Positions 13,020 through 37,107 of a stretch of DNA of 64,000 bases are shown here, in pieces (position 1 is the first letter of the stretch; each line of letters begins with the position of its first letter). The DNA is taken from the NCBI RefSeq assembly GCF_000949135.2, contig NZ_JTAN02000002.1, positions 227,101 through 291,100 of the forward strand, written 5' to 3'. The notes beneath the pieces were generated by a model. It was not told the origin of the DNA. It saw only the letters and a list, made by a program, of their open reading frames with translations, and did no database searches. Source of the DNA: Burkholderia sp. USMB20 (GTDB taxonomy: Bacteria > Pseudomonadota > Gammaproteobacteria > Burkholderiales > Burkholderiaceae). The translations under genes were made by a program, and so were the position numbers.

Positions 13020-13066
13020 GGCCGCTTGCGACTCCCGGCAACGGGGCGTCGCAAGCGGCCTTTTTT
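13020..13066 (+). terminator. Rho-independent terminator after the cysteine desulfurase
   Basis: Perfect 13-bp stem GGCCGCTTGCGAC (13020-13032) with GTCGCAAGCGGCC (13048-13060), a 15-base loop, then six T residues (13061-13066). Confidence 0.95.
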
Positions 13067-13093
13067 CGTGGCGATGCGGCAGCGCGACGGCGC

Positions 13094-13708
13094 TCAGCGC
13101 CCGGCCAGCATGCGCCCGCCGAGCCCCATCAGCAGCAGCCCGGCCGTCGTGTCGAGCACGGCCTTGCGCCGGATCAGCAGCCGGCGCACCGACGGATGCG
13201 ATGCGAGCAGCGCCATCGCGCAGTACCACGCGCCCGAAATCCCGATCGACAGCACGACGACCGTGAGATCGAGCCACACCGGCGTATGCGCCGGCACCAT
13301 CAACGCGAAGATGCTGCCGTAGAACGCGACGGATTTCGGGTTCGTCATGCTGACCACGTAGCCCTTCTTCGCGGCCTGCCAGCCGGAGGACGCGGGCGGC
13401 GCGGACACGGCGAGCGGCTTGCGTGCGCTCAGCACCATCTTCAGGCCGAGCCAGATCAGGTACGTGGCGCCTGCCAGTCGCAGCGCGGTGTGCACCCAGG
13501 CGACGTGGGTCACGAGCAGGCCGAGGCCGGCAATCGCGATCGCGGCCCAGGTGCCCGATGCGGCGGCGAGGCCGAGCCCGGTCATCACGCCGGCGCGGCG
13601 CTGCGCGAGCGCGGTGGACGTGACGATCACGAAGTTCGGGCCGGGGCTGGCCACGCTGAGCAGCAGGACGCCGGCGAGCGGCAGCAGGGTGTTGATGGTG
13701 GTCGACAT
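13094..13708 (-). CDS. LysE/RhtB family amino-acid exporter
   Basis: 204 residues, typical of the family, with about six hydrophobic segments. The N-terminal SVASPGPNFVIVTSTAL contains the conserved SPGPN motif of LysE/RhtB exporters; the second conserved stretch is GLKMVLSARKPL, with NPKSVAFYGSIFA further on. Inner-membrane exporter of an amino acid or homoserine-lactone-like solute. It is convergent with the encapsulin locus and divergent from the porin gene. Confidence 0.9.
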   Translation of the reverse strand: MSTTINTLLPLAGVLLLSVASPGPNFVIVTSTALAQRRAGVMTGLGLAAASGTWAAIAIAGLGLLVTHVAWVHTALRLAGATYLIWLGLKMVLSARKPLAVSAPPASSGWQAAKKGYVVSMTNPKSVAFYGSIFALMVPAHTPVWLDLTVVVLSIGISGAWYCAMALLASHPSVRRLLIRRKAVLDTTAGLLLMGLGGRMLAGR

Positions 13709-18607: not shown

Positions 18608-18732
18608 GGCGAGCGCCGAAACCAGCAGCGTGCGCGCAGCGAAGCCGCGCAGGGGAGAGCGTCATGGTCGGATGGAGGTCGGTGAGATCGGATCGGACGC
18701 GCCGGGCAGTGCCCGGCGCGGGCCGACCACGA

Positions 18733-18749
18733 CGCAAGTTTTGAACCAG
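18733..18749 (-). promoter_or_regulatory. Sigma-54 promoter, lipase gene
   Basis: Minus strand TGGTTCAAAACTTGCG: GG and GC separated by exactly 10 bases, matching the sigma-54 -24/-12 pattern TGGCAC-N5-TTGCW except in the middle of the -24 box. The GC lies 68 bases from the ATG at 18665. Confidence 0.65.
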
Positions 18750-18890
18750 CGCGGCGCAGCGCGAGTGCAGCGCCAGTGCAGCGCGGGCGCGGCACGCGCG
18801 GCGTGCGGCACGACGGGGAAACGCCCGCGCGCGGCGTGCGGCGCGCGCAGGCGCCGGCTGCGTCTCGCGCAGCAATCCGGGCTCGCCGGT

Positions 18891-18906
18891 TGTTGCTCCC
18901 GCAACA
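18891..18906. promoter_or_regulatory. Upstream activator site TGTTGC-N4-GCAACA
   Basis: Perfect inverted repeat TGTTGC-TCCC-GCAACA, placed about 100 bases from the plus-strand and 145 bases from the minus-strand sigma-54 promoters. The same pattern recurs at 25018-25033. The most likely binder is the sigma-54 activator encoded at 19891. Confidence 0.75.
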
Positions 18907-19002
18907 GATGCCGACACACGTATCGCGCCGCGCGGTTCGTCCACGGCGCGCACACCGCCCGCCCGCGCGGTGGCGCACGCATGCGACGCTCGCGTGCCCT
19001 GC

Positions 19003-19018
19003 TGGCACGATTGCTGCT
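19003..19018 (+). promoter_or_regulatory. Sigma-54 promoter, aldolase-like gene
   Basis: TGGCACGATTGCTGCT: GG (19004-19005) and GC (19016-19017) are 10 bases apart. The -24 half TGGCACG is consensus. It is 72 bases before ATG 19090. Confidence 0.75.
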
Positions 19019-19089
19019 GATCCGGTTGCCGTGCGTCGCGGCGTTGCGACGCGAGCCCATCCGTCCACCCGATCAAGGAAACCGTACTC

Positions 19090-19770
19090 ATGTCCGTCAC
19101 CCAAGCCATCGACAGCGGCGAACTCGTGGCATTCGTCGAGCGCGCCGCGCGCGAATTCGCGCAGGCCGCGCGCGTGCTGAAGGAAACGCGCACGCTGTCC
19201 GCCACCAACACGTTCCAGGCGTTCCAACGCGTGCCGGGCACGGAACTCGTCGTCGCGCTGTCGGCGCCGAGCCCGTGGGCTGCGTCTCAGGAGATCCAGC
19301 CGGTCGTCGTGACGCTCGACGGCGACGTGCTGCACGGCGATGCGCGCGCGGGCGCCAACGGGCCGCGTTATGCGGGCGTATTCCGCGAGGTACCGGAAGT
19401 CGACGTCGTGATTCACGTGCACGGCCCGTACCTCGGCGCGTGGGCGAGCGCGCATCGTCCGCTGCCGATCCGCTATGCGCCGGCCGCGCGCTACACGAGG
19501 GCCCGCGAGATTCCGGTCTACGTCGATCGCCGTCCCGGCGAACCGCGCTTCATCGTCGACACGATCCGGCGCGACCCCGAAGTCCCGGCGATCATCGAGG
19601 CGAACGGCGGCGCGACGTTCTGGGGCAAGTCGATTCTCGACGTGTCGAAGTACATCCTGATCCTCGAGGAAGCCGCGTATTTCCAGGCGCTCGCGGAACC
19701 GCTCGGCGGCTCGCTCGAATTCGGCCCGGGCGCGCTCGAGCAGCAATGGAAGATGACTGGCCTCGCGTGA
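19090..19770 (+). CDS. Class II aldolase/adducin-family protein
   Basis: 226 residues, length of the fold. The zinc ligands of class II aldolases are recognisable as HVHGPY (H109 and H111). The usual N-terminal phosphate-binding part is represented by SATNTFQAFQRVPG, which is weak, so the substrate may not be a sugar phosphate. It is expected to cleave or isomerise a small carbonyl compound in the cytoplasm. The gene has its own sigma-54 promoter and lies next to the sigma-54 activator, so it belongs to the organosulfur regulon, perhaps in processing a desulfurated carbon skeleton. That role is inference. Confidence 0.8.
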   Translation: MSVTQAIDSGELVAFVERAAREFAQAARVLKETRTLSATNTFQAFQRVPGTELVVALSAPSPWAASQEIQPVVVTLDGDVLHGDARAGANGPRYAGVFREVPEVDVVIHVHGPYLGAWASAHRPLPIRYAPAARYTRAREIPVYVDRRPGEPRFIVDTIRRDPEVPAIIEANGGATFWGKSILDVSKYILILEEAAYFQALAEPLGGSLEFGPGALEQQWKMTGLA

Positions 19771-19890
19771 CGCCGCGCCGGGGGCGGCGCAATCCGGCCG
19801 CCGTCATACCGATAGCTCGATGAATTGGTTCCTGGCCGGCGCGCGCCTTGCTATCGTCGAACCTCTCCCGTTCAACACGCCGGTCGTGCC

Positions 19891-21017
<1,127 letters not shown>

Positions 21018-21027
<10 letters not shown>

Positions 21028-21806
21028 TCGCGCCAGCGCAGCGCGCGCTGCGCGATCCGCTCGCATAGCGCACTCATGCCGACGGCCAGCGCCGTCACGC
21101 CCAGCACGCACACCAGCAGCACGTCGGCGCGCGCACCGGCCTGCGCGTTCTGCATCAGGCTGCCGACGCCGGCCCCCGTGTTGAACAGCAGCTCGCTGCT
21201 GGTCGCGGTGATCCACGCGAACGGCACGGCCTGGAGCACGCCCGCGAACAGGTCGGGCAATGCGCCCGGAATCAGCACGTCGCGCCACAAGCCGATCCGG
21301 CTCAGGCGATACGACCGCGCGAGTTCGACGTAGCGCGGATCGACGCGGCGCAGCCCGTCGAAGCTGGCGGTGGTCATCGGGTAGAACGCGGCGAGCGCGA
21401 TGATGAACACCTTCGCGAATTCGCCGGTGCCGGCCCACAGGCTCAGCAGCGGAATCAGTCCGAGCAGCGGCACGTAGCGCAGTGCCTGGAAGGCCGGCTC
21501 GGCGAGCTTGCGCGCGAGTGGAGAACGCGCCATCGACGCACCGAACACGAGCCCGAGCGCGACGCCGACTCCGAGCCCGAGCGTCGTGCGGCGCAGGCTC
21601 GCGCCGAGATCGGTCGCGAGTTCACCGCTGCGTGCGAGTTCGACCAGCGCGGCGCCGACCTGCTGCAACGGCACGAACGCGTATTGATGAGCCGCGTCGC
21701 CGGACGACGCGTATTGCCATGCGGCAACCAGCAGGGCCGGCACGACGAAGCCGCGCGCGCGGCGGCGCAGCGGGGAGAACGAGAAAGCGCGGGTAGCGAA
21801 GGTCAT
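21018..21806 (-). CDS. ABC transporter permease (SsuC/TauC type), second in operon
   Basis: 262 residues with about six hydrophobic segments of the BPD_transp_1 fold. The EAA-loop region DGLRRVDPRYVELARSYRLS, then DVLIPGALPDLFAGV, is the contact site for the ABC ATPase. It lies 22 bases after the other permease, and its end overlaps the sigma-54 activator gene. Together the two permeases would form a heterodimeric inner-membrane channel for an organosulfur compound. No ATPase gene is found nearby. Confidence 0.9.
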
Positions 21807-21828
21807 GCCGAAGCGTATCCAGTCAGGG

Positions 21829-22644
21829 TCAGCGTGCGGGCATCTGCCAGCGCAATGCGTAGCGCTGCACGAGCGCGATCGATCGGTCGAGCGCGAAGCC
21901 GATCAGCCCGATCGCCGCGACGTCGACGAGCACCACGTCGAGCCGCAGCATCTGCCGGGCAAGTTCCATCATCTGGCCGATCCCGCTGTCGGCGCTGAGC
22001 AGTTCGACCGCAACGAGCGCGAGCCACGCGCGCGCCAGCGCGATTCGCACGCCGGTCAGCAGCGGCGGCAGCGCGGCCGGCAGCAGCACGTCGCGCAGCA
22101 GCGCGAAGCGGCCGAGCCCGTAGTGGCGCGCCATCTCGACGAGATCGCGCGGCGCGTCGTGCACGCCCGTGTATGCGGCCAGCGCAACCGGGAAGAACAC
22201 GGCCTTGCCGACCACGACGAGCTTCAGCGGTTCGTCGACGCCGATCAGCAGGATCAGCAGCGGAATCAGCGTGAGCGTCGGCACCTGCCGCAGCAGGTCG
22301 AACGTCGGCCGCAGATAGTCGGAGAACAGCCGGCTGCGCGCAAGCAGGATGCCGAACGCGGCGCCGCCCGTCGCGCCGATCGCGAAGCCGAGCGCGAGGC
22401 GATGCAGCGTGATCAGCAGGTTGTCGCGCAGCTCGCCGGTGTCGAGCAGCGTGCGCAGCGTCGCCGCGAGGCGTTCGGGCGGTACGACGAGCTGCGGCGG
22501 AAACCAGCGCTGCGCGCTCGCGAGCCACCACAGCGCGGCGAACGCGACGGGCGTGATCCACCACAGCGCATGTTCGCCGAGCCGCGCGATGCCGGGCAGG
22601 CGGATGGCGCGCAAGCCGTTCGGCGCGAGGGCGCGCATCGGCAT
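21829..22644 (-). CDS. ABC transporter permease (SsuC/TauC type), first in operon
   Basis: 271 residues from ATG 22644, which overlaps the stop of the substrate-binding protein gene by one base. It has about six membrane segments. The EAA-like loop is APRDLVEMARHYGLGRFALL, with DVLLPAALPPLLTGVRIAL after it. It belongs with SsuC/TauC-like sulfonate permeases and pairs with the permease at 21018. Confidence 0.92.
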   Translation of the reverse strand: MPMRALAPNGLRAIRLPGIARLGEHALWWITPVAFAALWWLASAQRWFPPQLVVPPERLAATLRTLLDTGELRDNLLITLHRLALGFAIGATGGAAFGILLARSRLFSDYLRPTFDLLRQVPTLTLIPLLILLIGVDEPLKLVVVGKAVFFPVALAAYTGVHDAPRDLVEMARHYGLGRFALLRDVLLPAALPPLLTGVRIALARAWLALVAVELLSADSGIGQMMELARQMLRLDVVLVDVAAIGLIGFALDRSIALVQRYALRWQMPAR

Positions 22645-23750
22645 CAGCGGCTCGCGACGCGCGCGGCGTCGGCGCGCCAGTAGCCGTCGAGGCCGAGCTG
22701 CTTGAGCGCGGTCGACACGAAGGTCGGCGCGAGCAGCGCGTTCACGTCGACCGGCACGGAAGTCAGGCCGGCCTGGCGGCTGTATGCGATCACGTCGCGA
22801 TAGTGGCCGGTGAGCGCCGGCGTGAAGAGCGGCGTCCATTGCTCCTTCCACGGCGTCGCTTCGTCCGCGTATTCGCGGCGGACGATGCTTTCCGGCTGGC
22901 CGGACGCGCTCAGGATCTTCACGTACGCGTCGCGGTTCTGCGGCTGCGAGATCCAGTGCGCGGCACGGACGTAGGCCGTCGCGACGAGCTGCGTGATGTC
23001 GGGGTAGCGCCGCACGAAATCGTCGGACGCCCACAGTTCCGCGCGCATCTTCCAGTCGTCGGGCGCGGTCTTGGTCGACCAGATGATCTTGCCGACCTGC
23101 TTGTCGACGAGCGAATACGCGTCGGACAGCGTGAACAAGCCGTCGACGCGGCCGGCCGCGACGGCCGCCGCGCCGGCCTGCGGATCGAGGTTGTAGATCT
23201 TGAAGTCGGACAGCTTCAGCCCGTTCTCGGCGAGCAGCTTGCCGAACGTGACTTCCCACGGCCGGCCGCGGTTGAGCGCGATGCGCTTGCCCTTGAGGTC
23301 GACGATCGATTTCGCGGTCGAGCCGGCCGGTACGACGAGATACGTGTTGCTGCCGACGCCGCCGGGCACGATCAGGCGCGTGTGCGTGCCCGATGCGTTG
23401 ACGACGACCGACGGCAAATCGCCGTAGCCGGCGAAATCGATGCTGCCGTTCGTGAATGCCTCGTTGACGAGCGTGCCGACCGCCGCGGTCGACACGGGCA
23501 CCCATTGCAGCTTCACGTGCCGTGCCGCCAGCGCTTTCTCGAGCGACTTGTCGGCGTCGATCAGTGCGGAGGCACCCGCGTATTGCGTCTTGCCGCCGCT
23601 CGAATACGCGACGACGGCGATGCGCACGACCTTGGGGGCGTCTTCCGCATGCGCGGCCGGTGCCACGAGCGCCGCCGCGGCCAGCGGCAGCGCGGCGAGC
23701 AGCGCGCGTAGCGGGCGGCGCAGCGAAGCGAGGGAGAGCGTGTGTTTCAT
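22644..23750 (-). CDS. Periplasmic substrate-binding protein, sulfonate/nitrate ABC type
   Basis: 368 residues with a signal peptide cleaved after AHA (about residue 35). The mature sequence is SsuA/TauA-like: VVRIAVVAYSSGGK, TNGSIDFAGYGDLPSVVVNA, SIVDLKGKRIALNRGRPWEV and GRVDGLFTLSDAYSL. It captures the ligand in the periplasm for the two permeases downstream. It is the second gene of a four-gene minus-strand operon. The exact ligand is unknown; sulfonate, sulfone or an aromatic sulfur compound is favoured by context. Confidence 0.9.
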   Translation of the reverse strand: MKHTLSLASLRRPLRALLAALPLAAAALVAPAAHAEDAPKVVRIAVVAYSSGGKTQYAGASALIDADKSLEKALAARHVKLQWVPVSTAAVGTLVNEAFTNGSIDFAGYGDLPSVVVNASGTHTRLIVPGGVGSNTYLVVPAGSTAKSIVDLKGKRIALNRGRPWEVTFGKLLAENGLKLSDFKIYNLDPQAGAAAVAAGRVDGLFTLSDAYSLVDKQVGKIIWSTKTAPDDWKMRAELWASDDFVRRYPDITQLVATAYVRAAHWISQPQNRDAYVKILSASGQPESIVRREYADEATPWKEQWTPLFTPALTGHYRDVIAYSRQAGLTSVPVDVNALLAPTFVSTALKQLGLDGYWRADAARVASR

Positions 23751-23781
23751 GATGGTCCCGGACAGTGAACGGTAAAGGGGC

Positions 23782-24858
23782 TCATGCGCGCTTCTGCAGC
23801 GACGGCCGCAGCACGTCGGCGAGCGGGCGCGGGTCGATCCAGTCGGCGACATCGAAGTCCGCTTCCAGAAAGCCGTGGGCATGCAGGAACGTCTTGAACT
23901 CGTCGAGCGCGGCGATCGATTCGTCGTCGAGATTGACGCCGAGATGGCGGTGCAGCTGGTTGCCGTACGCGGCGCGAACCCAGTCAATCGACGACGCGGT
24001 TTCGCCGGCCACGTAGTGCGCGGTTTCGTCGGGATGCGCGCTCGCCCATTCGCCGGCGGCGACCACGAGCTTCAGGAAGCCGGCGACGATGTCCGGATGG
24101 TTCGCGAGCACGTCCGCGTTGACGGTCAGCGGGCGCGGCGTGCCGTTGTTGTTGCGGATCGAGCGCTCCGGATGGAAGCCGATGTCGATCACGACGTGCG
24201 CGCCGATCAGCTGCGCGATCTCGAGGCCCGTCGAGCCTTTCACGTAGATCGCGTCGACTTCGCCGCGCAGCAGCGCGCCGGCTTCGGCCGCATAGAGCGC
24301 GCGGCTCGAGAAGCCTTGCGGCGACGCGAACAGGTTCGCCGCGCGCGCCGGCCCGACTGCCTGCAGCGTGCGTGCGCGCACGTCGACGAGTTCGACATCG
24401 CGCGTGGTCAATCCGTCGAGGCTCAGCGCATTGACGAAGCCGCGCAGCGCCGACGCGCGAAAGATGTCGATGCGATCGTCGGGGCGGCTCGGAATCGCGA
24501 TCCGGCGCCCGCGCAACGCCTTCACGGAGCGGATGCCCGACTCGGGGCGCGCGAGGATCAGCTGCGATTCGTCGACCCACGACAACCCAATCACGCGCGT
24601 ATTCGCGTCGTTCGAGCGCGCCCACATCGCGGGGATGCTGCCGCCCTGGCGAAACGACTGCGCGAGCGTGTGGTCGCTGATCGACGACACGTCGTGCCGC
24701 GTGGCGCCGCGCGGCGAGCGGATCGCGACGCCGTCGGCTGACGTCTCGCCGTTGAGCCAGCCGAGATGCACGGCGATGCCGAGCGGCGTCGGTACCGGCG
24801 ATCGGGCGTACCAGAACGTCTGCTGCTTGTCCGATGACGAATCGGGCCTGTCTGTCAT
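23782..24858 (-). CDS. DszB-like protein with Ser replacing the catalytic Cys
   Basis: 358 residues, no signal peptide. Homologous along its whole length to the two proteins at 26513 and 29598 and, by pattern, to DszB (2'-hydroxybiphenyl-2-sulfinate desulfinase) and its periplasmic-binding-protein fold. Here the active-site motif is WYARSPVPTPLG with Ser20 where DszB has Cys27. His63 and Arg70 (SFRQGGSIPA) remain. It may therefore be a binding protein, a sensor or an inactive partner, not a desulfinase. First gene of the minus-strand operon, 69 bases from a sigma-54 promoter. Confidence 0.8.
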   Translation of the reverse strand: MTDRPDSSSDKQQTFWYARSPVPTPLGIAVHLGWLNGETSADGVAIRSPRGATRHDVSSISDHTLAQSFRQGGSIPAMWARSNDANTRVIGLSWVDESQLILARPESGIRSVKALRGRRIAIPSRPDDRIDIFRASALRGFVNALSLDGLTTRDVELVDVRARTLQAVGPARAANLFASPQGFSSRALYAAEAGALLRGEVDAIYVKGSTGLEIAQLIGAHVVIDIGFHPERSIRNNNGTPRPLTVNADVLANHPDIVAGFLKLVVAAGEWASAHPDETAHYVAGETASSIDWVRAAYGNQLHRHLGVNLDDESIAALDEFKTFLHAHGFLEADFDVADWIDPRPLADVLRPSLQKRA

Positions 24859-24926
24859 GTGTGAGATTCCCCTGTCTGGGTAAGCGTGGTCGAGGCGCGG
24901 TGTCGCACGCGCGGGCCGTTCCACAT

Positions 24927-24942
24927 TGCAAGTTCCGGGCCA
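24927..24942 (-). promoter_or_regulatory. Sigma-54 promoter of the ABC/DszB-like operon
   Basis: Minus strand TGGCCCGGAACTTGCA: GG (24941-24940) and GC (24929-24928) are 10 bases apart, and TTGCA is consensus for the -12 half. It lies 69 bases before ATG 24858 and about 75-120 bases from the paired activator sites. Confidence 0.75.
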
Positions 24943-25017
24943 GTGAACGGAAACGGCCGTGCGGCAAGCGCAGCGGGCATCGCGCGCGATGCGCCGCGCG
25001 TCGGCCCGCGCATCGCC

Positions 25018-25063
25018 TGTTGCGTGAGCAACAGTCGCATCGAGCGCTGTTGCGCATGCAGCA
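25018..25063. promoter_or_regulatory. Tandem upstream activator sites between divergent sigma-54 promoters
   Basis: Site 1 is TGTTGC-GTGA-GCAACA (25018-25033), a perfect inverted repeat. Site 2 is TGTTGC-GCAT-GCAGCA (25048-25063), with one mismatch. They are 30 bases apart, close to three helical turns, so both lie on the same DNA face. They are shared by the promoters at 24927 (minus) and 25213 (plus). Confidence 0.8.
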
Positions 25064-25212
25064 CCGGTGCGGCCGGTGCAGCAGCACCGCGCCGGCTCGT
25101 GTTCGCGATGCCGGCAACCTCGGGCGCGTTCCTGCCGTTTGCCGCCGACGCCCGGCCCGCAAGGCGTCGCGCGCGCTCGTCGGTCGCTTCGCAGGTCGGC
25201 GAGCGCGCGCGT

Positions 25213-25228
25213 TGGCACACCGCGTGCT
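25213..25228 (+). promoter_or_regulatory. Sigma-54 promoter of the SsuD-like/TonB operon
   Basis: TTGGCACACCGCGTGCTT: GG (25214-25215) and GC (25226-25227) separated by 10 bases, with consensus TGGCAC. It is 71 bases before ATG 25299. Confidence 0.78.
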
Positions 25229-25298
25229 TAACAGCGCTGCATACGCGCGGCACGCCGGTGCCGCACGCAATCCGAACGGGCCGACAAGGAGAATCCCG

Positions 25299-26468
25299 AT
25301 GGCTGTTGAATTTCTGTGGCGCCTGCCGATGCACGGCGACGGCCGGCGCGCACACGACCTGCATACGCGCGGCGAATGGAACCGCCAGCGCGCATCGCGC
25401 GTTGCGCCCAAAGTCGACGACGACGATTTCGGCTACATCGACTACCTGTCGCAAGTCGCGCGTGCGGCCGATATCGCCGGCTTCCACGGCGCGCTGATTC
25501 CGATCTTCCGCTTTACCGAGGAGCCGTGGGTCGTCGCGGCCGCGCTGGCGCGCGAGACGCGCCGCCTGCGACTGCTGATCGCGCTGCAGCCGCATTTCGT
25601 GCATCCCGTCTATGCGGCGCAGATGGCCGCGAGCCTGCAGCGGATCAGCCGCGGCCGCGTCGAGTGGAACGTCGTCACGGGCGGCGGCGGTCCCGACCAG
25701 CGCGCGTACGGCGACTTCATCGATCACGACAGCCGCTATGCGCGCACCGACGAATTTCTCGACGTCGTGAAGGGCGTCGCGGCCGGCGCGCCGTTCACGT
25801 TCGACGGCCGCTTCTATCGCGTCGAAGCCGGCGGGCTGCTGCCGCCGCTGAGCGGCCAGACGCCGCCGCGGATCTATCTGGCCGGCGCGAGCGATGCCGC
25901 GCTCGCGGTGGCCGCGAAGCACGGCGACGTGCACCTGAGCTGGGGCGAGCCGCTCGCGAAGCAGAAGGAGGTGATCGATGCGGCGCGCCGCGCGCTCGAC
26001 CGCCAGAACGCCGAGCGCGACCTGCGCTTCGGCATGCGCATCGACATCCTGGCGCGCGAGACCGAGGAGCAGGCGTGGGCCGAACTGCGGCAGATGTTCG
26101 CGACCGTGAGTGCGTCGACGCACAACGGCTTCGGCGGGCGCGGCGAGTCGGAATCGGTCGGCGCGAAACGTCAGTTCGCGCTGCACCAGGGCAACACGCA
26201 GCACTTCGACGACCTGATCGTCGGCCCGAACCTGTGGGCCGGGATGTCGCAGATCCGCGGCGGCCCCGGTTGCGTGATCGTCGGCAGCCACGAGCAGGTA
26301 GCCGAGCGGCTGGCGGAATACGTCGACATCGGCGTCTCGACGTTCATTCTCGCGAGCAACCCGCATCTCGAAGAGGCGTACCGCGTGGGCGAGGAAGTGC
26401 TGCCGCTCGTCGACGGCACGCTGAACGCACGCGGCACGCAGGCGACGCTGCGCGTGGCCGGTGCCTGA
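25299..26468 (+). CDS. SsuD-like flavin-dependent alkanesulfonate-type monooxygenase
   Basis: 389 residues; AAGGAG (25286-25291) sits 7 bases before ATG 25299. The luciferase-like TIM barrel resembles SsuD closely: FLWRLPMHGDGRRAHD at the N-terminus, NVVTGGGGPDQRAYGDFIDH and HGDVHLSWGEPLAKQKEV in the middle, then ALHQGNTQHFDDLIVGPNLW and FILASNPHLEEAYRVGEEVL at the C-terminus. With FMNH2 from a reductase it would oxidise a C-S compound and release sulfite or a sulfinate. No flavin reductase gene is nearby, so one must act in trans. First gene of an operon that continues to 31888. Confidence 0.88.
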   Translation: MAVEFLWRLPMHGDGRRAHDLHTRGEWNRQRASRVAPKVDDDDFGYIDYLSQVARAADIAGFHGALIPIFRFTEEPWVVAAALARETRRLRLLIALQPHFVHPVYAAQMAASLQRISRGRVEWNVVTGGGGPDQRAYGDFIDHDSRYARTDEFLDVVKGVAAGAPFTFDGRFYRVEAGGLLPPLSGQTPPRIYLAGASDAALAVAAKHGDVHLSWGEPLAKQKEVIDAARRALDRQNAERDLRFGMRIDILARETEEQAWAELRQMFATVSASTHNGFGGRGESESVGAKRQFALHQGNTQHFDDLIVGPNLWAGMSQIRGGPGCVIVGSHEQVAERLAEYVDIGVSTFILASNPHLEEAYRVGEEVLPLVDGTLNARGTQATLRVAGA

Positions 26469-26512
26469 GCGCGGCGGCAGGCCTGCACATTCAAACGACA
26501 AGGACACTCACC

Positions 26513-27559
26513 ATGACGACACTCGCTGCGCAGGCCACGGCTTGCGACGCACTCTGGTACACGCGCTGCCCGGTGCCGACCGCGCTCGGCATCGCCGTGC
26601 ATCGCGGCTGGTTCGACGAGGAGTTCGGGCCGGACGGCATCGCGCTGCACTCGCTGCAGGAGACGGCCGACGCCGACAAGCGCGAATCGCATTTCGATCA
26701 CAGCCTGCCGCACTCGTTCCGGCAGGGCGGCAACATTCCCGCGCTGTGGGCGCGGGCTCGCGGCGCCGATACGCGCGTGATCGGCCTGTCGTGGACCAAC
26801 GAATTCCAGGCGATCGTCACGCTGCCCGAACGCGGCATCCGCACCGCGCGCGATCTGCGCGGCCGGCGGCTCGGGTTGCCGCGCCATCCGATCAGCATCG
26901 ACTTCTGGCGCGCGGCCGCGTTGAAGGGGTTCCTGAGCGCGCTCGAGCTGGAAGGGCTCGGCCACGGCGACGCCGAATGGGTCGACCTGCCCGACACGCA
27001 CGAGCGCCGCACCGGGCCCGCGTCGTTCACGCGCGGCCCGCACGAGTACGGGCTCGAGATCGCGGCACTCGTGCGCGGCGAGGTCGACGCGGTGTTCGTG
27101 AAAGGTGTCGAAGGGCTCGAAACCGTACACCTGATCGACGCGCAGGTCGTCATCGATCTCGGCGCGCACCCCGATCCGCTGGTGCGGATCGGCAACGGCA
27201 CGCCGCGCACGCTGACCGTCGATCGCGCATTGATCGATGCGCGCCCCGATCTCGTGAGCCGCTTCCTGTCGGTCGTGGTCGGCGCGGGCGACTGGGCCGC
27301 GCGCCATCCGGCGGAGACGGTCGCCTATATCGGCCGCGAAACGCGCGCGTCCGACGAGTGGGTGCGCTACGCGTACGGCGCGGACGTGCACCGGCATCTG
27401 GAAACGGGGCTCGCGCCGACGTCGATCGACGGACTGGTCGCGTTCAAGGATTTCCTCGTCGAATGGGGCTTTCTCGAACGCGATTTCGATGCGCGCGCAT
27501 GGATCGATCCGGCGCCGTTCACGCAGATCGACCGGCATCGCCATGCGTGGGTCGCGTAG
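26513..27559 (+). CDS. DszB-like sulfinate desulfinase, copy with Cys
   Basis: 348 residues, no signal peptide, so cytoplasmic despite its SsuA/THI5-like fold. WYTRCPVPTALG places Cys19 at the position of DszB Cys27. SHFDHSLPHSFRQGGNIPAL supplies His60/63, Arg70 and the Gly-Gly turn that in DszB shape the sulfinate site. Later stretches DLRGRRLGLP, RGEVDAVFVKGVEGLETVHL and VIDLGAHPDPLVRIGNGTPR run parallel to the paralogues. Predicted reaction: hydrolysis of an aryl or alkyl sulfinate to sulfite. It follows the monooxygenase directly, which could supply the sulfinate. Confidence 0.78.
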   Translation: MTTLAAQATACDALWYTRCPVPTALGIAVHRGWFDEEFGPDGIALHSLQETADADKRESHFDHSLPHSFRQGGNIPALWARARGADTRVIGLSWTNEFQAIVTLPERGIRTARDLRGRRLGLPRHPISIDFWRAAALKGFLSALELEGLGHGDAEWVDLPDTHERRTGPASFTRGPHEYGLEIAALVRGEVDAVFVKGVEGLETVHLIDAQVVIDLGAHPDPLVRIGNGTPRTLTVDRALIDARPDLVSRFLSVVVGAGDWAARHPAETVAYIGRETRASDEWVRYAYGADVHRHLETGLAPTSIDGLVAFKDFLVEWGFLERDFDARAWIDPAPFTQIDRHRHAWVA

Positions 27560-27592
27560 CGCGCCGCGGCGCGTCATTGCAAGGAGCCGAAT

Positions 27593-28395
27593 ATGACAGG
27601 ACTGCTGATCGAATACGGCGTGCCGACGGCGCGCCGGCACGCGGCGCGCACGGCCGCCGCGGTTGCGGTGCCTGCGACACGGCTGTCGCCGGCGGTGCCG
27701 CCTGCGCGCAAGGACGTGCGGCCCGCGCAGCCGGGCGGTTGGCGCGGCGCGGGCGCGATTGCGCTCGCCGTCGCGGCGCTGCACGCGGGCATCGCGCTAT
27801 TGGCGGCGCGTGCGCCCGCCGAGCCGCGCGTGCAACCGCCGAGGCCGCTGCCGATGACGGTCGAGTTGACGCGGCCGCCCGACCGTTTCCGCAGGCCGCA
27901 CATCCGCCGCCGCCGGTCGTGCCGCCGAAGCCGTTGAAGCAGGCGCCGACCCCGCCGAAGCCGCGCGTGGCCGTTGCGCATCAGGCGCCCGCTCTGGCTG
28001 TCGTGCCGCCGGTGGCTCGCGACGCATCGACTGCTGCACCGGCACAGGTCGCCGCAGCGCCTGCCATCCCGAACCCGGCGCCCGTCCCCGCCGCGCCGGC
28101 CGCACCGGTGCGCGAATCCGCGCCGATCGGCGACGCGGCGTACCTGCGCAACCCGGCACCCGACTATCCGGCGTTCGCGCAGGACCAGGGCTGGGAGGGG
28201 CGCGTCGTGCTGCGCGTGCACGTGCTCGCGAACGGCACGCCCGATTCCGTCGAGGTCCGCACGAGCAGCGGCCGCCGCGTGCTCGACAACGCGGCGGTGG
28301 CCGCCGTGAAGCGCTGGACGTTCGTGCCCGCGAAGCGCGGCGACGAAGCGGTCGACGGCTGGGTCAACGTGCCGATCGATTTCAAGCTGGGCTGA
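27593..28395 (+). CDS. TonB energy-transducing protein, interrupted by a frameshift
   Basis: From ATG 27593 (AAGGAG 6 bases upstream) the frame gives a membrane anchor GAIALAVAALHAGIALLAAR (about residues 53-72) and VELTRPPD, then runs off. One base later the other frame continues the expected Pro-rich periplasmic spacer (HPPPPVVPPKPLKQAPTPPK) and the C-terminal TonB domain (AYLRNPAPDYPAFAQDQGWE, GRVVLRVHVLANGTPDSVEV, VKRWTFVPAKRGDE). The shift is at about 27883, as if GACCCG had become GACCG. With that base restored the protein is about 267 residues. The exbB and exbD genes follow directly. Confidence 0.85.
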
Positions 28396-28437
28396 CCCGA
28401 CGGGCGGCTCGCCACATTTTTCAAGGAACTCACATCA

Positions 28438-29153
28438 TGACCGGTATCCCGACCACCTTCATCGTCCAGGGCGCGCTCTGGCTGCTCGTCGTCTTCTCCG
28501 TCGTCACGTGGACGCTGATCGTCGTCAAGGCAATCCAGAGCCTGCGATCGAGCGCGCGCAACCGGCGTTACGTCAGTGCATTCTGGGCCGCGAACAGCTT
28601 CCACGACGCGGCCGCGCTCGACGGCGCGAACAGCCCGGTCGGCGAACTCGCCGCGACGGGCTTCGACGCGCTGCGGCGTGCCGACGAGAGCAGCGCGCAC
28701 GATCTGGAACACAGCTGGAGCCGCCACGACCTGCTCGAACGCCATCTGCGCCAGCAGATCCACAATGCGCGCCGACGCGAGGAAGCGGGGCTCGCCGTGC
28801 TCGCGTCGATCGGCAGCACCGCGCCGTTCGTCGGCCTGTTCGGCACCGTGTTCGGCATCATCCATGCGCTGACCGCGATCACGCACAGCGCGTCGGCGAG
28901 CATCGACGTCGTTGCCGGGCCGATCGGCGAGGCGCTCGTCGCGACCGGGATCGGCATCGCGGTCGCCGTGCCGGCCGTGCTCGCGTACAACTTCTTCGTG
29001 CGTCGCGTGAAGGCCGCGTCGGCCGACCTCGATGCGTTCGCAACCGACTTCGTCACGCTCGCGCAGAAGGCCGGCTTCCGCGTGCCGGCCGCCGCGCCTG
29101 CTGCCGCGCCGGCACGCCGTTCCGACGACACCCGCCAGGAGGCGTTCGCATAA
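28438..29153 (+). CDS. exbB: ExbB/TolQ-type proton channel subunit
   Basis: 238 residues. First membrane segment IVQGALWLLVVFSVVTWTLI (9-28), a cytoplasmic helical part, then two segments around LAVLASIGSTAPFVGLFGTV and ALVATGIGIAVAVPAVLAYN. GSTAPFVGLFGTVFGII is the family signature. It pairs with ExbD to energise TonB with the proton-motive force. AAGGA precedes the ATG at 28438. Its stop overlaps the exbD start (TAATG). Confidence 0.95.
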
Positions 29154-29563
29154 TGGCCTTCTCGTCCTCTTCCGACAACGACGACGTGCTCAGCGAAATC
29201 AACATCACGCCGCTCGTCGACGTGATGCTCGTGCTGCTCGTCGCCTTCATCGTCACCGCGCCGCTGCTCAACAACGCGGTGCACGTGAATCTCCCGAATA
29301 CCGTCGCTACCGCGCCGGCCGACCGCAAGCCGAACGTTACCGTGAGCGTCGACGCCAAGGGCATCGTGTATCTCGACAAGCGCGCGGTCGCGCTCGACAC
29401 GGTGCCGGCCGAACTGGCCGCGCTGAAGGCCGGCCGCCCCGACGTCGCGCTCGACCTGCAGGCCGACGAGCACGTGCCGTACGGCATCGTCGCGAAGCTG
29501 ATGGCCGCGATCGAGCGCGCGGGCATCACGCGGCTGTCGGTGCTCACCGCGCCGCGCGGCTGA
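29153..29563 (+). CDS. exbD: ExbD/TolR-type subunit
   Basis: 136 residues. Short cytoplasmic tail, one membrane helix with the proton-relay Asp (D23 in ITPLVDVMLVLLVAFIV), then a periplasmic domain (NVTVSVDAKGIVYLDKRAV, ending RAGITRLSVLTAP). The start codon overlaps the exbB stop by one base, with GGAGG upstream. Together with the preceding two genes it forms a complete private TonB motor. Confidence 0.95.
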   Translation: MAFSSSSDNDDVLSEINITPLVDVMLVLLVAFIVTAPLLNNAVHVNLPNTVATAPADRKPNVTVSVDAKGIVYLDKRAVALDTVPAELAALKAGRPDVALDLQADEHVPYGIVAKLMAAIERAGITRLSVLTAPRG

Positions 29564-29597
29564 CGCGCCTTTCAAGACTTCCTTTGCGAACGCATCC

Positions 29598-30674
29598 ATG
29601 AGCACCACGGCTTCACACAACGTCCAGTCGATCTGGTACACGCGCTGTCCGGTACCGACGCCGCTCGGCATTGCCGCGCATCTCGGCTGGCTCGACAGCG
29701 AATTCGCCGGCGACGGCATCACCGTACGCGCATTGCAGGAAAGCCAGCACGCGGCGCTGCATCACGCGCACGTCGATCATTCGCTCGACAACGCGTTCCG
29801 GCAGGGCGGCAGCATTCCGGCGCTGTGGGCGCGCGCGTCCGGCGCCGACACGCGTGTGGTCGCGCTGACCTGGGTCGACGAGTCCCAGGCGATCGTCGCA
29901 CTGCCGGAAGCCGGCCTGACGCGGCCGAAAGACCTGCGCGGGCGCCGCATCGGCCTGCCGCGCCGCGACGGCGAGCGCATCGACATCTTCCGCGCGGCGG
30001 CGCTGCGCGGCTTCGTCAGTGCGCTGTCGCTCGACGGGCTCGGCCCCGGCGACGTCGAATGGGTCGACGTACCGGCGTCGAACCTGCGCGCGCCGGTGTC
30101 GACCCCCGCGACCCGCGACGCGGCATTCAGCCATCCGGCGAGCCTGTCGAGCCGGCGGCTCTATGCAGCCGAGGCGGCCGCGCTGGTGCGCGGTGACGTC
30201 GATGCGATCTATGTGAAGGGCTCGCTCGGGCTCGAAACCGCGCACCTGATCGGCGCGCAGCCGGTCGTCGACATCGGTTTTCATCCCGATCCGCAGGTCC
30301 GCATCAACAACGGTTCGCCGCGGCCGCTGACCGTCAACGCAGCGACGCTCGAGCGCCATCCCGACATCGTCAGCCGTTTCCTCGCGCGCGTGACCGATGT
30401 CGAAGGCTGGGCGCGCGAGCACGAAGATGAAGTGCTCGACTATCTCGGCCGCGAGACGGGGTCGGGCCACGACTGGCTGCGGCTGGCTTATGGCGCGGAC
30501 GTCCACCGGCGGCTGCGCACGGATCTCGACGAAGCGTCGATCGCAGCGCTCGACGATTTCAAGCGTTTCCTGGTCGACTGGCGGTTCCTGCCCGCCGACT
30601 TCGACGTGCACGCGTGGATCGACCGGCGTGCGCTCGACGGCATCGCGGCATCGTTTCGCGACGCCGCGCGGTGA
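29598..30674 (+). CDS. DszB-like sulfinate desulfinase, second copy with Cys
   Basis: 358 residues, no signal peptide. WYTRCPVPTPLG gives Cys17 at the DszB nucleophile position; HVDHSLDNAFRQGGSIPALW gives His61 and Arg68. DLRGRRIGLPRRDGERIDIF, RGDVDAIYVKGSLGLETAHL and PVVDIGFHPDPQVRINNGSP match the other two copies. It is more similar to the Ser-bearing copy at 23782 than to 26513 in the middle section, so duplication and divergence are likely. The next gene starts inside its stop codon. Confidence 0.78.
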   Translation: MSTTASHNVQSIWYTRCPVPTPLGIAAHLGWLDSEFAGDGITVRALQESQHAALHHAHVDHSLDNAFRQGGSIPALWARASGADTRVVALTWVDESQAIVALPEAGLTRPKDLRGRRIGLPRRDGERIDIFRAAALRGFVSALSLDGLGPGDVEWVDVPASNLRAPVSTPATRDAAFSHPASLSSRRLYAAEAAALVRGDVDAIYVKGSLGLETAHLIGAQPVVDIGFHPDPQVRINNGSPRPLTVNAATLERHPDIVSRFLARVTDVEGWAREHEDEVLDYLGRETGSGHDWLRLAYGADVHRRLRTDLDEASIAALDDFKRFLVDWRFLPADFDVHAWIDRRALDGIAASFRDAAR

Positions 30675-31888
30675 GCGTGCCGGCACGCGTCGCCGGCGCA
30701 TGGCGGCGCGAGCGCTTCACCGGCGGCTTCATGCTGCTCGCGCTCGCGAGCGGCACGACGATCAGCATGGCGCAGCTCGCGACGACGTTGTATGCGCTGG
30801 CACTCGGCGTCGACAGCGCGCGGCTCGGCGTCATCGCCGCGATGGAGCCCCTCGGCATTGCACTGATGACCCTGCCTGCCGGGCTGCTCGTCGCGCGCTA
30901 CGGCGCGCGGCGCGTGTACTTCGCCGCGAGCATGGGGCCGATGCTGCTCAATCTCGTCGTGCCGTTTACCGGCGCGTGGCCGCTGATCGCGCTCACGCAG
31001 GGGCTGATCGGGCTGTGCATCCCGTTCCGGATCGTGTCGATCAACGGCGTATTCCTTGCGCGTCTCGCGCAGATCGGCCTCGCGCGCGCGGGCTGGTATC
31101 GCGCGGCCATGTCGGTCGGAACCGGCATGGCGGGGCCGTGGCTCGCGAGCTGGCTGATCGGCGCGCACGGCGCGGTCGCGACGTTCTGCGCGGCGTCGGC
31201 GAGCTTCGCGGGCATGGCGTTGTTCAGCCGGATGCTGCTTGGCGACGCCGAGCCGCCGTCGCGCCGCGCACGGCATGAAACGGGCACGCTGCGCGCGCTG
31301 CTCGCGCTCGCGTGGAGCCACGACGTGCGCGAGCAGCTCGTGCTGGAGGCCGTGAACAGCGCGACACGCTCGCTCGTCGGCACGTATACGGTGGTGCTCG
31401 CGATTCAGTCGCTCGGACTGTCGCGGACGCGCGCCGTCGCGCTGCTCACCTTGCAGGGTGCCGTTGCGGTGATCGCGTTGTTCGGGCTCGGCAATGTCGC
31501 ACAGCGGATGACCGGGCGCCGTTGCCATGCGCTCGGTCTCTCAGGCAGCATCGCCGGGCTGCTCACGCTCGGCCTCGCGCGCGACGCGTGGATCGTCGGC
31601 GCAGGGCTCGCCGCGCTGTGCGCCGGGTCATCGCTGCTGCATCTCGTCAACATGCAGCATCTGGGCCGCCACCCGGCCGACAAGAGCCAGGTGTCGAGCC
31701 TGTACAACCTCGCGTCGATGGCCGGCGCGTTCTGCGGCCCGCTGGCCGGCAGTGCGCTCGTGCCGGTCGTCGGGTTGCAGGCCGTGTTTCTGTGCTGGCT
31801 GCCGGTGGTCGTGCTGGTGGCGTTCGCGCTGCGGTTCGCCAGGAGCCGTCGCGGTGCGGCGCAGCCGCTGCCTGCAAAGCTGTCCTGA
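30671..31888 (+). CDS. MFS transporter of the organosulfur operon
   Basis: GTG start at 30671 overlaps the previous stop by four bases (GTGA), indicating translational coupling. About 405 residues with roughly 12 hydrophobic segments. The loop after helix 2 is GLLVARYGARRVYF, a weak form of the MFS motif A. It is the last gene before the TonB-dependent receptor. It could import a substrate brought in by the receptor or export a desulfurated product; direction cannot be read from sequence. Confidence 0.85.
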   Translation: MSVPARVAGAWRRERFTGGFMLLALASGTTISMAQLATTLYALALGVDSARLGVIAAMEPLGIALMTLPAGLLVARYGARRVYFAASMGPMLLNLVVPFTGAWPLIALTQGLIGLCIPFRIVSINGVFLARLAQIGLARAGWYRAAMSVGTGMAGPWLASWLIGAHGAVATFCAASASFAGMALFSRMLLGDAEPPSRRARHETGTLRALLALAWSHDVREQLVLEAVNSATRSLVGTYTVVLAIQSLGLSRTRAVALLTLQGAVAVIALFGLGNVAQRMTGRRCHALGLSGSIAGLLTLGLARDAWIVGAGLAALCAGSSLLHLVNMQHLGRHPADKSQVSSLYNLASMAGAFCGPLAGSALVPVVGLQAVFLCWLPVVVLVAFALRFARSRRGAAQPLPAKLS

Positions 31889-31904
31889 CGATCTTCGAGG
31901 ACGG

Positions 31905-31952
31905 TGTTGCGAGACCAGCAGTTTGCTTTCTTCCACAGATGCGTATGCAGCA
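31905..31952. promoter_or_regulatory. Two imperfect activator half-palindromes upstream of the TonB-dependent receptor
   Basis: TGTTGC-GAGA-CCAGCA (31905-31920) and AGATGC-GTAT-GCAGCA (31937-31952) resemble the TGTTGC-N4-GCAACA sites, at 32-base spacing like the pair at 25018. Each has mismatches, so affinity is probably lower. Confidence 0.45.
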
Positions 31953-32004
31953 ACGGCGGCACCGTGCGCGTGCCTGCAGCCCCGTGCGACGGGCTTCTCG
32001 ATGC

Positions 32005-32020
32005 TGGCATCCGAATTGCA
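32005..32020 (+). promoter_or_regulatory. Sigma-54 promoter of the TonB-dependent receptor gene
   Basis: TGGCATCCGAATTGCA: GG (32006-32007) and GC (32018-32019) are 10 bases apart and both half-sites are near consensus (TGGCA and TTGCA). It is 63 bases before ATG 32083. Confidence 0.8.
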
Positions 32021-32082
32021 ATACAGAACCCGTGCGTCGCGCACGCACGTGCGTTCAACCGATCAAACAGGATGACTCATCG

Positions 32083-34398
32083 ATGTTCAGGAAAAAACTA
32101 ATCGTCACCGCGCTGGGGGGACTGCTGACGGGCGGCACCGTATCGTTGCCCGCATGGGCAGAGGATGGCGCGGCGACCGCGGGGGCGCCGGACGCGAAGC
32201 CGGCGCAACAGGCGTCGGACGACGCGACCGCGGCAGCGCCGAAGACCACCGGCGCGAATCGCGGGTCGACCGTACGCGAAGCGAATCTCGGCACGGTGAC
32301 CGTGACCGCGCGCCGGCGCAAGGAGCGCATTCAGGACGTGCCGGTCGCGGTGAGTGCGCTGAGCGGCGACGCGATCAAGAACAACGAGTTGCGCGTGATC
32401 AACGACGTGACGAAGTACGTGCCGAACTTCAACGGACAATCGACCGAGGGCCGCGAGCGGCCGCGCTGGTTCCTGCGCGGCGTCGGCAGCAACGATCCTT
32501 CGGACCTGTCGCTGAGCCCGATCGGCGTGTACTTCGACGACGTATACATCAACAGCGTGTTCGGGCAGGGCTTTCCGCTGTTCGACCTCGATCGCATCGA
32601 GGTGCTGCGCGGGCCGCAGGGCACGCTGTGGGGCAAGAATACCGTCGGCGGCGCGCTCAGCATCACGTCGCAGAAGCCGACCTTTGACGTGAGCGGCTAC
32701 GGCAAGCTCGGCCTCGGCCAGTACAACAGCCGGCTCGCGGAAGCCGCGATCGGCGGTCCGATCGGCAAGAACGACGTGCTGGCCGCGCGCGTGTCGGTGT
32801 ATCACGAGAATGCTGACAGTTTCTACACGAACACCGTGCAGCAAGGGCGCTTCGGCGGCTTCCACGACAACGCGGTGCGCTTCCAGGTGCTGGCCGTGCC
32901 GACGTCCGACACCGATTTCCTGTTCAACATCCACGGCCGCAACTACACGGGCGGCGGCGATGCATGGCACGCGGAGGGCGCGGGTCGCGGCGGCGCGAAC
33001 CAGTTCGGCTTCGTCGGGTCGACCGATCCGTACACGGTGTCGCTCAATGCGCCGTCGAGCGATCACATCTCGACTTGGGGTACGTCGCTCACCGCGCACT
33101 GGCGCATCAACCCGGCGGTGTCGCTGACGTCGATCACGGCATTCGAAGGGCTGCACCGCTGGTATCAGGACGACGAGGACTATTCGCCGTTCGATGCGGC
33201 ACGCTCGCATGACCGCCTGTCGAGCCGCCAGTTCTCGCAGGAGTTCCGGCTCGAATCGCCGCAGAGCGAGCGGCTGAGCTGGCTGGTCGGCACGCACCTG
33301 TTTACCGAGCAACTGGCCGAGCAGGGCGCCGGCGGCGGCCTGCCGGGCGCGCCGTCGCCCGCGTTCTACCACCTGACCGACCTCACGCAGCACACGCAGA
33401 GCGCGGCGATCTTCGGCAGCGTCAAGTACCGCTTCACCGACCGTTTCAACGTGACGGGCGGGCTGCGTTACACGATCGAGCGCAAGACCATCAATCTGAC
33501 GGGGCTGCAGGGCACGGGCAACGTGACGTTCAGCGATCCGAACAGCTGGTGGTCGCCGTCGTCGGTGTCGTCGCCGCTCGCGGTCAGCGCGCAGCAGAAC
33601 CAGACGAACACGTGGCGTGCGCCGACCTGGGATCTCACGCCGGAATATGCGCTCAGCAACAACGTGCGCGCGTATTTCCGCTATGCGCGCGGTTTCCGCT
33701 CGGGCGGCTACAACGGCAACGCGTATACGCAGAGCACGGTGTCCACCGTGTCGCCGGAGTACCTGACCGACTACGAGATCGGCATCAAGAGCGAGTGGTT
33801 CGACAAGCGGCTGATCGTCAACGCGAGCGTGTTCCACTACGACTATCGCGACATCCAGGTATTCGCGCTCGCGCCGAACCCGTTCGGCGGGCCGCCGGTG
33901 TCGACGTTGTCGAATGCGGGGCAGGGGCGCGCGGACGGCTTCGAGCTCGAGCTGAAGGCGCAGCCCGTCAACAGCCTGTACCTGTTCGCGAACCTCGGGA
34001 TGCTGAACACGCGCTTCACGGAGTTCCGCTACGTGCCGACGGCCGTCGGCAACTCGTTCGCGCGTTCGCCGCATACGACGCTGAACGCGGGCTTCGACTA
34101 TCGCGTGCCGGTGTCGTTCGGCACGTTGACGGCCGGGGGCGACGTGAACTACCGCAGCCGCGAATACTTCAGCGCGACGCGGCAGACGATGCCGCAGCTC
34201 TGGCAAGGCGGCTATACGGTGCTGAACGCGCATGTGTCGTACACGACGCCGAACCAGAAATACATCGTGACGGGCTACGTGACGAACCTGACGAACAAGG
34301 TTTACAAGAAGCTCGAGCTGCTGCCGTCGTATGGCGCGTATCCGGTGCTGTACGGCGATCCGCGCACGGTCGGGATCACGCTGACCGCGAAGATCTGA
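32083..34398 (+). CDS. TonB-dependent outer-membrane receptor
   Basis: 771 residues. Signal peptide to AWA (about residue 26). A TonB-box-like LGTVTVTARRRKE precedes the plug (DVPVAVSALSGDAIKN, RIEVLRGPQGTLWGKNTVGG). A 22-strand barrel follows, ending with YLTDYEIGIKSEWF and GYVTNLTNKVYKKL. Plug and barrel are full length, so the gene is intact. Receptors of this iron-complex-like group are often wrongly read as siderophore receptors; here the adjacent ExbBD-TonB, desulfinases and sigma-54 promoter suggest uptake of a sulfur compound, as proposed for sulfate-starvation-induced receptors. Confidence 0.93.
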   Translation: MFRKKLIVTALGGLLTGGTVSLPAWAEDGAATAGAPDAKPAQQASDDATAAAPKTTGANRGSTVREANLGTVTVTARRRKERIQDVPVAVSALSGDAIKNNELRVINDVTKYVPNFNGQSTEGRERPRWFLRGVGSNDPSDLSLSPIGVYFDDVYINSVFGQGFPLFDLDRIEVLRGPQGTLWGKNTVGGALSITSQKPTFDVSGYGKLGLGQYNSRLAEAAIGGPIGKNDVLAARVSVYHENADSFYTNTVQQGRFGGFHDNAVRFQVLAVPTSDTDFLFNIHGRNYTGGGDAWHAEGAGRGGANQFGFVGSTDPYTVSLNAPSSDHISTWGTSLTAHWRINPAVSLTSITAFEGLHRWYQDDEDYSPFDAARSHDRLSSRQFSQEFRLESPQSERLSWLVGTHLFTEQLAEQGAGGGLPGAPSPAFYHLTDLTQHTQSAAIFGSVKYRFTDRFNVTGGLRYTIERKTINLTGLQGTGNVTFSDPNSWWSPSSVSSPLAVSAQQNQTNTWRAPTWDLTPEYALSNNVRAYFRYARGFRSGGYNGNAYTQSTVSTVSPEYLTDYEIGIKSEWFDKRLIVNASVFHYDYRDIQVFALAPNPFGGPPVSTLSNAGQGRADGFELELKAQPVNSLYLFANLGMLNTRFTEFRYVPTAVGNSFARSPHTTLNAGFDYRVPVSFGTLTAGGDVNYRSREYFSATRQTMPQLWQGGYTVLNAHVSYTTPNQKYIVTGYVTNLTNKVYKKLELLPSYGAYPVLYGDPRTVGITLTAKI

Positions 34399-36964: not shown

Positions 36965-37107
36965 CGCAACGCGTGCATGACGGCGCGAGTCGTCGATCAA
37001 CGGGCGGCGTGCATATTCCTGCTTCCCGTTAGCATGTGACGAATCCGACTTTGGGCGCCGCGCGGGCGCCGCTAAGATCGCCGATCCGTAATCGAGCGTT
37101 CGACAAA

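Follow-up and report, generated by a model that had tools for sequence, protein, structure and literature searches.

The 64,000-nucleotide stretch of Burkholderia sp. USMB20 DNA analyzed in this study (contig NZ_JTAN02000002.1, positions 227,101 to 291,100; hereafter the window, numbered from its first letter) contains a locus of approximately 17 kb (17384-34398) that is apparently an import and breakdown cluster for an organic sulfur compound. The locus is very probably a self-contained organosulfur-scavenging regulon, in which five RpoN-dependent promoters would be driven by a local SfnR-type activator. The original prediction described a single regulon of sigma-54 promoters centered on an SfnR-like activator, and comparison with related loci supports it: the promoter cores and activator sites are conserved, a receptor gene that has moved is accompanied by its site, and sites of the same kind are found at msu and sfn promoters. 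Motif counts in the window only do not clearly surpass those of shuffled sequence, and the case is therefore built on comparison.

The five predicted sigma-54 promoters are listed below, with the invariance of the core (the six bases of TGG and TGC) among aligned loci and the rank given by a promoter matrix.

18733..18748, minus strand: promoter of the lipase gene, TGGTTCAAAACTTGCG; core 6/6 invariant in 20 rows; rank 3 of 127,970
19003..19018, plus strand: promoter of the aldolase-like gene, TGGCACGATTGCTGCT; core 6/6 invariant; rank 2
24927..24942, minus strand: promoter of DszB-like paralogue 1 and the importer genes, TGGCCCGGAACTTGCA; core 6/6 invariant in 21 rows; rank 1
25213..25228, plus strand: promoter of the monooxygenase operon, TGGCACACCGCGTGCT; core 6/6 invariant in 21 rows; rank 8
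32005..32020, plus strand: promoter of the receptor gene, TGGCATCCGAATTGCA; core 6/6 invariant in 15 rows; rank 4

The GG-N10-GC elements were found at the positions and on the strands originally claimed. The -12 GC, predicted at 63 to 72 bases from a start codon, is 68, 72, 69, 71, and 63 bases from the ATG for the promoters at 18733, 19003, 24927, 25213, and 32005, respectively. Transcription from the promoter at 19003 into the activator gene by read-through is possible. A candidate sixth sigma-54 promoter at 19837, 5' of the activator gene, was rejected, as it ranks 51 and its word is not conserved in the alignment. No match to the integration host factor consensus was found within the three intergenic regions that contain the promoters.

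Each of these intergenic regions also contains a pair of putative activator sites, inverted repeats of the form TGTTGC-N4-GCAACA, with spacings of 32, 30, and 32 bases. The sites are listed with their mismatches, the number of invariant arm bases, and the rank given by a site matrix.

18859..18874, plus strand: degenerate activator site, partner of 18891; 4 mismatches; 7/12 arm bases invariant; rank 22
18891..18906, plus strand: activator site TGTTGC-TCCC-GCAACA, exact; 9/12 arm bases invariant; rank 2
25018..25033, plus strand: activator site TGTTGC-GTGA-GCAACA, exact; 10/12 arm bases invariant; rank 1
25048..25063, plus strand: activator site, 30 bp from 25018; 1 mismatch; 11/12 arm bases invariant; rank 3
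31905..31920, plus strand: activator site; 2 mismatches; 8/12 arm bases invariant; rank 4
31937..31952, plus strand: degenerate activator site, 32 bp from 31905; 3 mismatches; 5/12 arm bases invariant; rank 14

The repeats named in the original prediction, i.e., one at 18891, two at 25018-25063 (the second of which has 1 mismatch), and a degenerate pair at 31905-31952, are all present; the degenerate partner at 18859 had been overlooked.

Conservation was assessed on alignments whose rows were drawn from 25 loci obtained by a protein scan with the second DszB-like desulfinase, from the Burkholderia arboris and Burkholderia cenocepacia records, and from the window (loci and genomes are denoted by L and G numbers, respectively). 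The lipase/aldolase alignment has 20 rows, that of the paralogue 1/monooxygenase region has 21, and that of the receptor region has 16 (15 after the removal of L019). L003-L006 duplicate L001/L002, L026-L032 were left out, L009, L010, L014, and L018 stop short of the receptor region, and L022 covers the middle region only. None of the rows deviates from the six-base core at any of the five promoters, and the spacers of the six palindromes have no invariant base (0/4 each). Among the remaining columns of the three regions, 12/418, 20/373, and 21/146 are invariant. Conservation is concentrated in the promoter cores and activator sites, and the regions diverge otherwise. Within the pair of the middle region, the first site is the better one in Burkholderia, and the second is the better one in Paraburkholderia-type rows.

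Paraburkholderia-type rows and msu/sfn loci supplied 30 sites for the site matrix and 20 words for the promoter matrix. The sites at 25018, 18891, 25048, and 31905 take ranks 1 to 4 of the 63,985 window positions (31937 is 14th and 18859 is 22nd), and the promoters take ranks 1, 2, 3, 4, and 8 of 127,970. Orthologous positions from another genus are among the training rows, and the matrices are therefore held out by taxon and not by locus.

In L024 and L025, the receptor gene is relocated behind desulfinase 2, where it has its own 1-mismatch site and promoter TGGCATTCCTTTTGCA; tonB, exbB, exbD, desulfinase 3, and the transporter gene of the major facilitator superfamily (MFS) were not found in these two loci. 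In L019 (Burkholderia sp. Bp8963, 10001-13454), the receptor gene directly follows desulfinase 2 and the genes from tonB to the MFS transporter are missing; the 82 bases between desulfinase 2 and the receptor gene keep the -12 half of the promoter, and the -24 half and the sites are gone.

Genome scans for the palindrome followed by GG-N10-GC, which had been suggested as a check on the prediction, place the combination mostly within the locus. In the B. arboris and B. cenocepacia records (3.5 and 3.2 Mb), 2 and 3 exact palindromes were found, respectively by size; two in each record are inside the locus, and the reversed control gave none. In 23 genomes it occurs 0-6 times each, at least once in 18, compared with 5 control sites in 4 genomes. 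A composite scan, which requires a looser site and then TGG-N9-TGC at 70-100 bp so that arrangements at 110 and 149 bp fall outside, gave 27 matches in 15 of 16 genomes; 23 are in the locus (11 Burkholderia genomes), 2 are at the moved receptor gene (G016 and G017), and the control gave 0. Among 65 Burkholderia genomes, the composite was found in 21/21 genomes with the locus and in 0/44 without it, a split that is partly true by construction because the sites are part of the locus; all 42 matches are at most 6 kb from paralogue 1, and the control gave 4. At this one stringency, the site-promoter combination is absent elsewhere in the 65 genomes.

In the B. cenocepacia record and the 23 genomes, 22 exact palindromes are outside the locus (L007, L051-L070, and L083). 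The surroundings of all 22 (3-6 kb each) were also read for other regulon members, and all but L070 were rejected. Fourteen are within open reading frames of at least 150 aa. Among the other eight, only L070, from the genome with the Methyloversatilis locus, has a passable sigma-54 word on the right side, 124 bp off; no reading frame of 150 aa was found behind it, and L070 is still a candidate.

The activator gene (19891-21027) encodes 378 aa with the GAFTGA motif, and its AAA+ domain (PF00158, 3e-71) begins at residue 24; because of this start, the protein has no sensor domain, as had been claimed. No Pfam helix-turn-helix match was found at the C-terminus, where the helix SRNIVRARL is identical to that of one of two Pseudomonas aeruginosa activators. 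A Burkholderia pyrrocinia relative (57% identity) is encoded beside msuE, sfnG, and an SfnB-type gene, and two P. aeruginosa relatives (53-54%) flank msuE, ssuD, and an acyl-CoA-dehydrogenase-type gene. The msu operon of P. aeruginosa is reported to group with sfnR1 and sfnR2 (PMC8234197); judging by gene context, we take the two activators to be SfnR1 and SfnR2.

Upstream of P. aeruginosa msuE, the exact palindrome TGTTGC-CCGG-GCAACA has a partner with 3 mismatches at a distance of 31 bp, and a sigma-54 promoter TGGTACGGCCCTTGCT comes next. Two copies (3 and 1 mismatches) are 31 bp apart upstream of Burkholderia glumae msuE, and in Jeongeupia, paired sites with 2-3 mismatches precede sigma-54 words, at spacings of 31 and 33 bp. 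The site is thus of the SfnR kind, most clearly so in P. aeruginosa, and because a palindrome pair and a sigma-54 promoter precede P. aeruginosa msuE between two SfnR-like activators, the circuit appears to be of the SfnR type. The local activator itself is a paralogue and not an orthologue of SfnR (57% identity): 13 of 18 genomes contain a closer, canonical copy, defined by at least 75% identity to that of L071. In a tree, the local activators group with that of Jeongeupia (99/99), where the deeper order is unsure, with one remote outgroup and a long-branch warning.

Several results weigh against the proposed regulon. In the window alone, 5 palindromes with at most 2 mismatches compare with a shuffled mean of 2.1 (6 of 100 shuffles reach 5; not significant), and the loose promoter consensus is not in excess (45 seen, 54 expected). 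The sites at 18859 and 31937 are weak. In the composite scan, 2 of the 27 matches are elsewhere (G014 and G015), both within open reading frames, and G013 has the locus and no match; sites of a looser form or at another distance fall outside the scan of the 65 genomes. Without the promoter requirement, there are 47 exact sites in the 21 locus-bearing and 31 in the 44 locus-free Burkholderia genomes. Four other sulfur loci (L071, L077, L078, and L079) have copies with 2-3 mismatches and no pair spaced by 30-33 bp, and the canonical SfnR of 13 genomes could also use the sites. The window counts are what chance matches in GC-rich intergenic DNA would give, but chance is excluded, with near certainty, because of the conservation, the matrices held out by taxon, and the genome scans with their 21/21 versus 0/44 split. 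It is very improbable that there are two circuits, in which the palindromes would serve the divergent regions only and the receptor promoter would answer to another sigma-54 activator. Exact palindromes do occur only at 18891 and 25018, and the receptor pair deviates from the palindrome at 2 and 3 bases in the window; however, five Paraburkholderia-type loci have a receptor site with 1 mismatch, and the site moves with the receptor gene in L024 and L025 and is fourth in the window at 31905.

A canonical SfnR encoded elsewhere might be the main reader of the sites, with the local activator secondary or confined to a subset of promoters. The frequency of the canonical copy and the occurrence of the same kind of site at msu/sfn promoters are in line with this arrangement, which we nevertheless consider unlikely. 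G014, G016, and G017 have the local activator type alone at E <= 1e-95 and keep the sites, an argument for the local activator as their reader. Moreover, the local activator accompanies the locus in every aligned row covering its position, and the Burkholderia sfn promoters (L071 and L077) have 3-mismatch forms only. A regulon driven by the local activator is the reading that we prefer.

The activator gene is preceded by a different element.

19803..19860, plus strand: conserved block 5' of the activator gene, not sigma-54-like; invariant blocks in a 19-row alignment

The core pattern of this block occurs once per genome in 16/16 genomes, and because of this single occurrence it is not a widely repeated site. 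The block may be an activator-dependent sigma-70 promoter through which a sulfur signal would enter, possibly by means of a regulator of the CysB or SsuR type.

The genes of the locus are as follows.

17384..18665, minus strand: secretory-lipase-like alpha/beta hydrolase (PF03583); in-frame open reading frame 17384-18607
19090..19770, plus strand: class II aldolase/adducin-family protein (PF00596)
19891..21027, plus strand: SfnR-type sigma-54 activator without a sensor domain (PF00158, GAFTGA, relatives)
21018..21806, minus strand: SsuC-like permease of the ATP-binding cassette (ABC) type (PF00528)
21829..22647, minus strand: SsuC-like ABC permease (PF00528)
22644..23732, minus strand: periplasmic SsuA-type binding protein (profile matches)
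23782..24858, minus strand: DszB-like paralogue 1, which lacks the catalytic Cys and His; ATG at 24858
25299..26468, plus strand: luciferase-like flavin monooxygenase, between SsuD and MsuD
26507..27559, plus strand: DszB-like desulfinase, paralogue 2
27593..28395, plus strand: TonB-like protein (TIGR01352 on the C-terminal part)
28437..29153, plus strand: ExbB/TolQ-like protein; match below both cut-offs
29150..29563, plus strand: ExbD/TolR-like protein; match below both cut-offs
29598..30674, plus strand: DszB-like desulfinase, paralogue 3
30671..31888, plus strand: MFS transporter (weak MFS models)
32083..34398, plus strand: TonB-dependent outer-membrane receptor

The closest records are those of B. 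arboris (92.3% identity) and B. cenocepacia (92.2%), which are chromosome-sized and match over 98% of 15.7 kb. With the outer genes counted, the layout, given as about 14 kb in the original prediction, covers about 17 kb. The lipase, aldolase-like gene, and receptor named there were recovered as family matches (PF03583, PF00596, and TonB-dependent receptor). The ABC importer holds for the binding protein and the two permeases, but no importer ATPase gene, and likewise no flavin reductase gene, was recognized within the cluster. In the window, the ATG of the lipase gene (18665) does not share the frame of the open reading frame 17384-18607; the corresponding ATG is in frame in 7/7 relatives checked. 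Just beyond the regulon, a sulfatase-like gene is followed by a formylglycine-generating-enzyme-like gene at 37036-40123 (weak matches), and no common site was seen there. Of the 65 Burkholderia genomes, 21 carry paralogue 1 (E <= 1e-100); of 369 genomes sampled across the class, one does, namely G001 (E <= 1e-70). Environmental Paraburkholderia with the locus include P. polaris and P. bannensis. A Methyloversatilis metagenome-assembled genome (L029, 86-18175) contains relatives of most module genes in a different order (33-68% identity), and its activator is slightly nearer to canonical SfnR.

The monooxygenase belongs to the luciferase-like family (E values of 1e-70 to 1e-78 against SsuD/MsuD) and scores 311.1 bits, below the curated SsuD cut-off of 518.2 (TIGR03565). 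The positions aligned to Cys54, His228, and Tyr331, which we take to be pocket residues of SsuD, are Thr, Asp, and Asn, respectively, and 12/12 orthologues read alike. Paralogues 2 and 1 match DszB over the full length (E values of 1e-12 and 2e-11, respectively). The catalytic residues of DszB, presumably Cys27, His60, and Arg70, are kept in paralogues 2 and 3 (7/7 module rows each); among 14 paralogue 2 relatives read, Gly is present in L029, and the motif pattern missed L028. In paralogue 1, the first gene of the importer operon, Cys is replaced by Ser in 13/13 rows and His by Ile (12 rows) or Ser (1 row), and Arg is kept. The term "desulfinases" used earlier thus suits paralogues 2 and 3 and not paralogue 1. 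In Sinorhizobium meliloti, a DszB-like gene is among acyl-CoA-dehydrogenase-type and NtaA/DmoA-type enzymes, a neighborhood that would fit oxidation followed by desulfination.

Paralogue 1 is retained from Burkholderia to Jeongeupia in a form that lacks these two catalytic residues, Cys and His. It is conceivable, albeit quite improbable, that it is a missing sensor, which would bind the substrate or sulfinate in the cytoplasm, gate the sensorless activator, and make the circuit respond to a particular compound in addition to sulfur starvation.

The private TonB motor proposed for the locus is a candidate. The TonB C-terminal domain scores 80.6 bits against a cut-off of 27.1 (TIGR01352) and has ExbB/ExbD-like neighbors; these proteins score higher as TolQ and TolR, all below the cut-offs, and tonB is split over two frames in the window. 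Among six sequences checked, the ends of tonB are in different frames in the window, L001, and L002 and in one frame in L008, L011, and L012; the split may be a sequencing error or a real disruption. The substrate is perhaps too large or too scarce for porins.

Activator binding, RpoN dependence, control by sulfur, and the chemistry are predicted features of the following scheme. Sulfur starvation would be sensed at the non-sigma-54-like promoter of the activator gene (CysB/SsuR type). The activator would then bind the inverted-repeat pairs TGYTGC-N4-GCARCA, and looser forms of them, spaced by about three helical turns in the three intergenic regions, and would drive RpoN-dependent transcription of five units: the lipase gene; the aldolase gene, perhaps on into the activator gene; paralogue 1 with the binding protein and permeases; the monooxygenase-desulfinase-TonB/ExbB/ExbD-desulfinase-MFS operon; and the outer-membrane receptor gene. 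The products would release, import, and oxidatively desulfurize one organosulfur compound, in which the flavin monooxygenase would make a sulfinate or sulfite and the DszB-like enzymes would free sulfite.

The mechanism itself is not new; the locally wired circuit of the SfnR kind is. Literature searches, which did not include the full text of the primary SfnR papers, gave no description of this locus that we recognized. If the scheme is true, SfnR-type sulfur control reaches beyond the genes for dimethyl sulfone and methanesulfonate to a unit for TonB-type import and desulfurization. The comparison also offers a definition of the site, i.e., paired TGYTGC-N4-GCARCA approximately 30-33 bp apart and then a sigma-54 promoter, and the three genomes without canonical SfnR are natural controls.

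Among known systems, the locus resembles the SfnR regulons of Pseudomonas (sfnFG, sfnA, and msuEDC; SfnR1/SfnR2 in P. aeruginosa), for which one report describes a rise of msu and sfn products in sulfur-starved P. aeruginosa (PMC12581299). Common features are a sensorless sigma-54 activator (53-57% identity), the exact palindrome, which at P. aeruginosa msuE is accompanied by another copy at 31 bp and a sigma-54 promoter, and a flavin monooxygenase among the targets. On the other hand, the activator of the present locus is a paralogue beside canonical SfnR in 13/18 genomes, and its putative targets are gathered at a single locus and extend to TonB-type import, DszB-like proteins, a lipase, and an aldolase. 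The resemblance to the 2'-hydroxybiphenyl-2-sulfinate desulfinase DszB extends over the full length; paralogues 2 and 3 retain Cys, His, and Arg, whereas paralogue 1 has Ser for Cys and lacks His, and no dibenzothiophene genes were seen at the locus. The monooxygenase shares the luciferase-like family with the alkanesulfonate monooxygenases SsuD and MsuD but differs from SsuD in its score, which is below the curated value, and in the replacement of three pocket residues.

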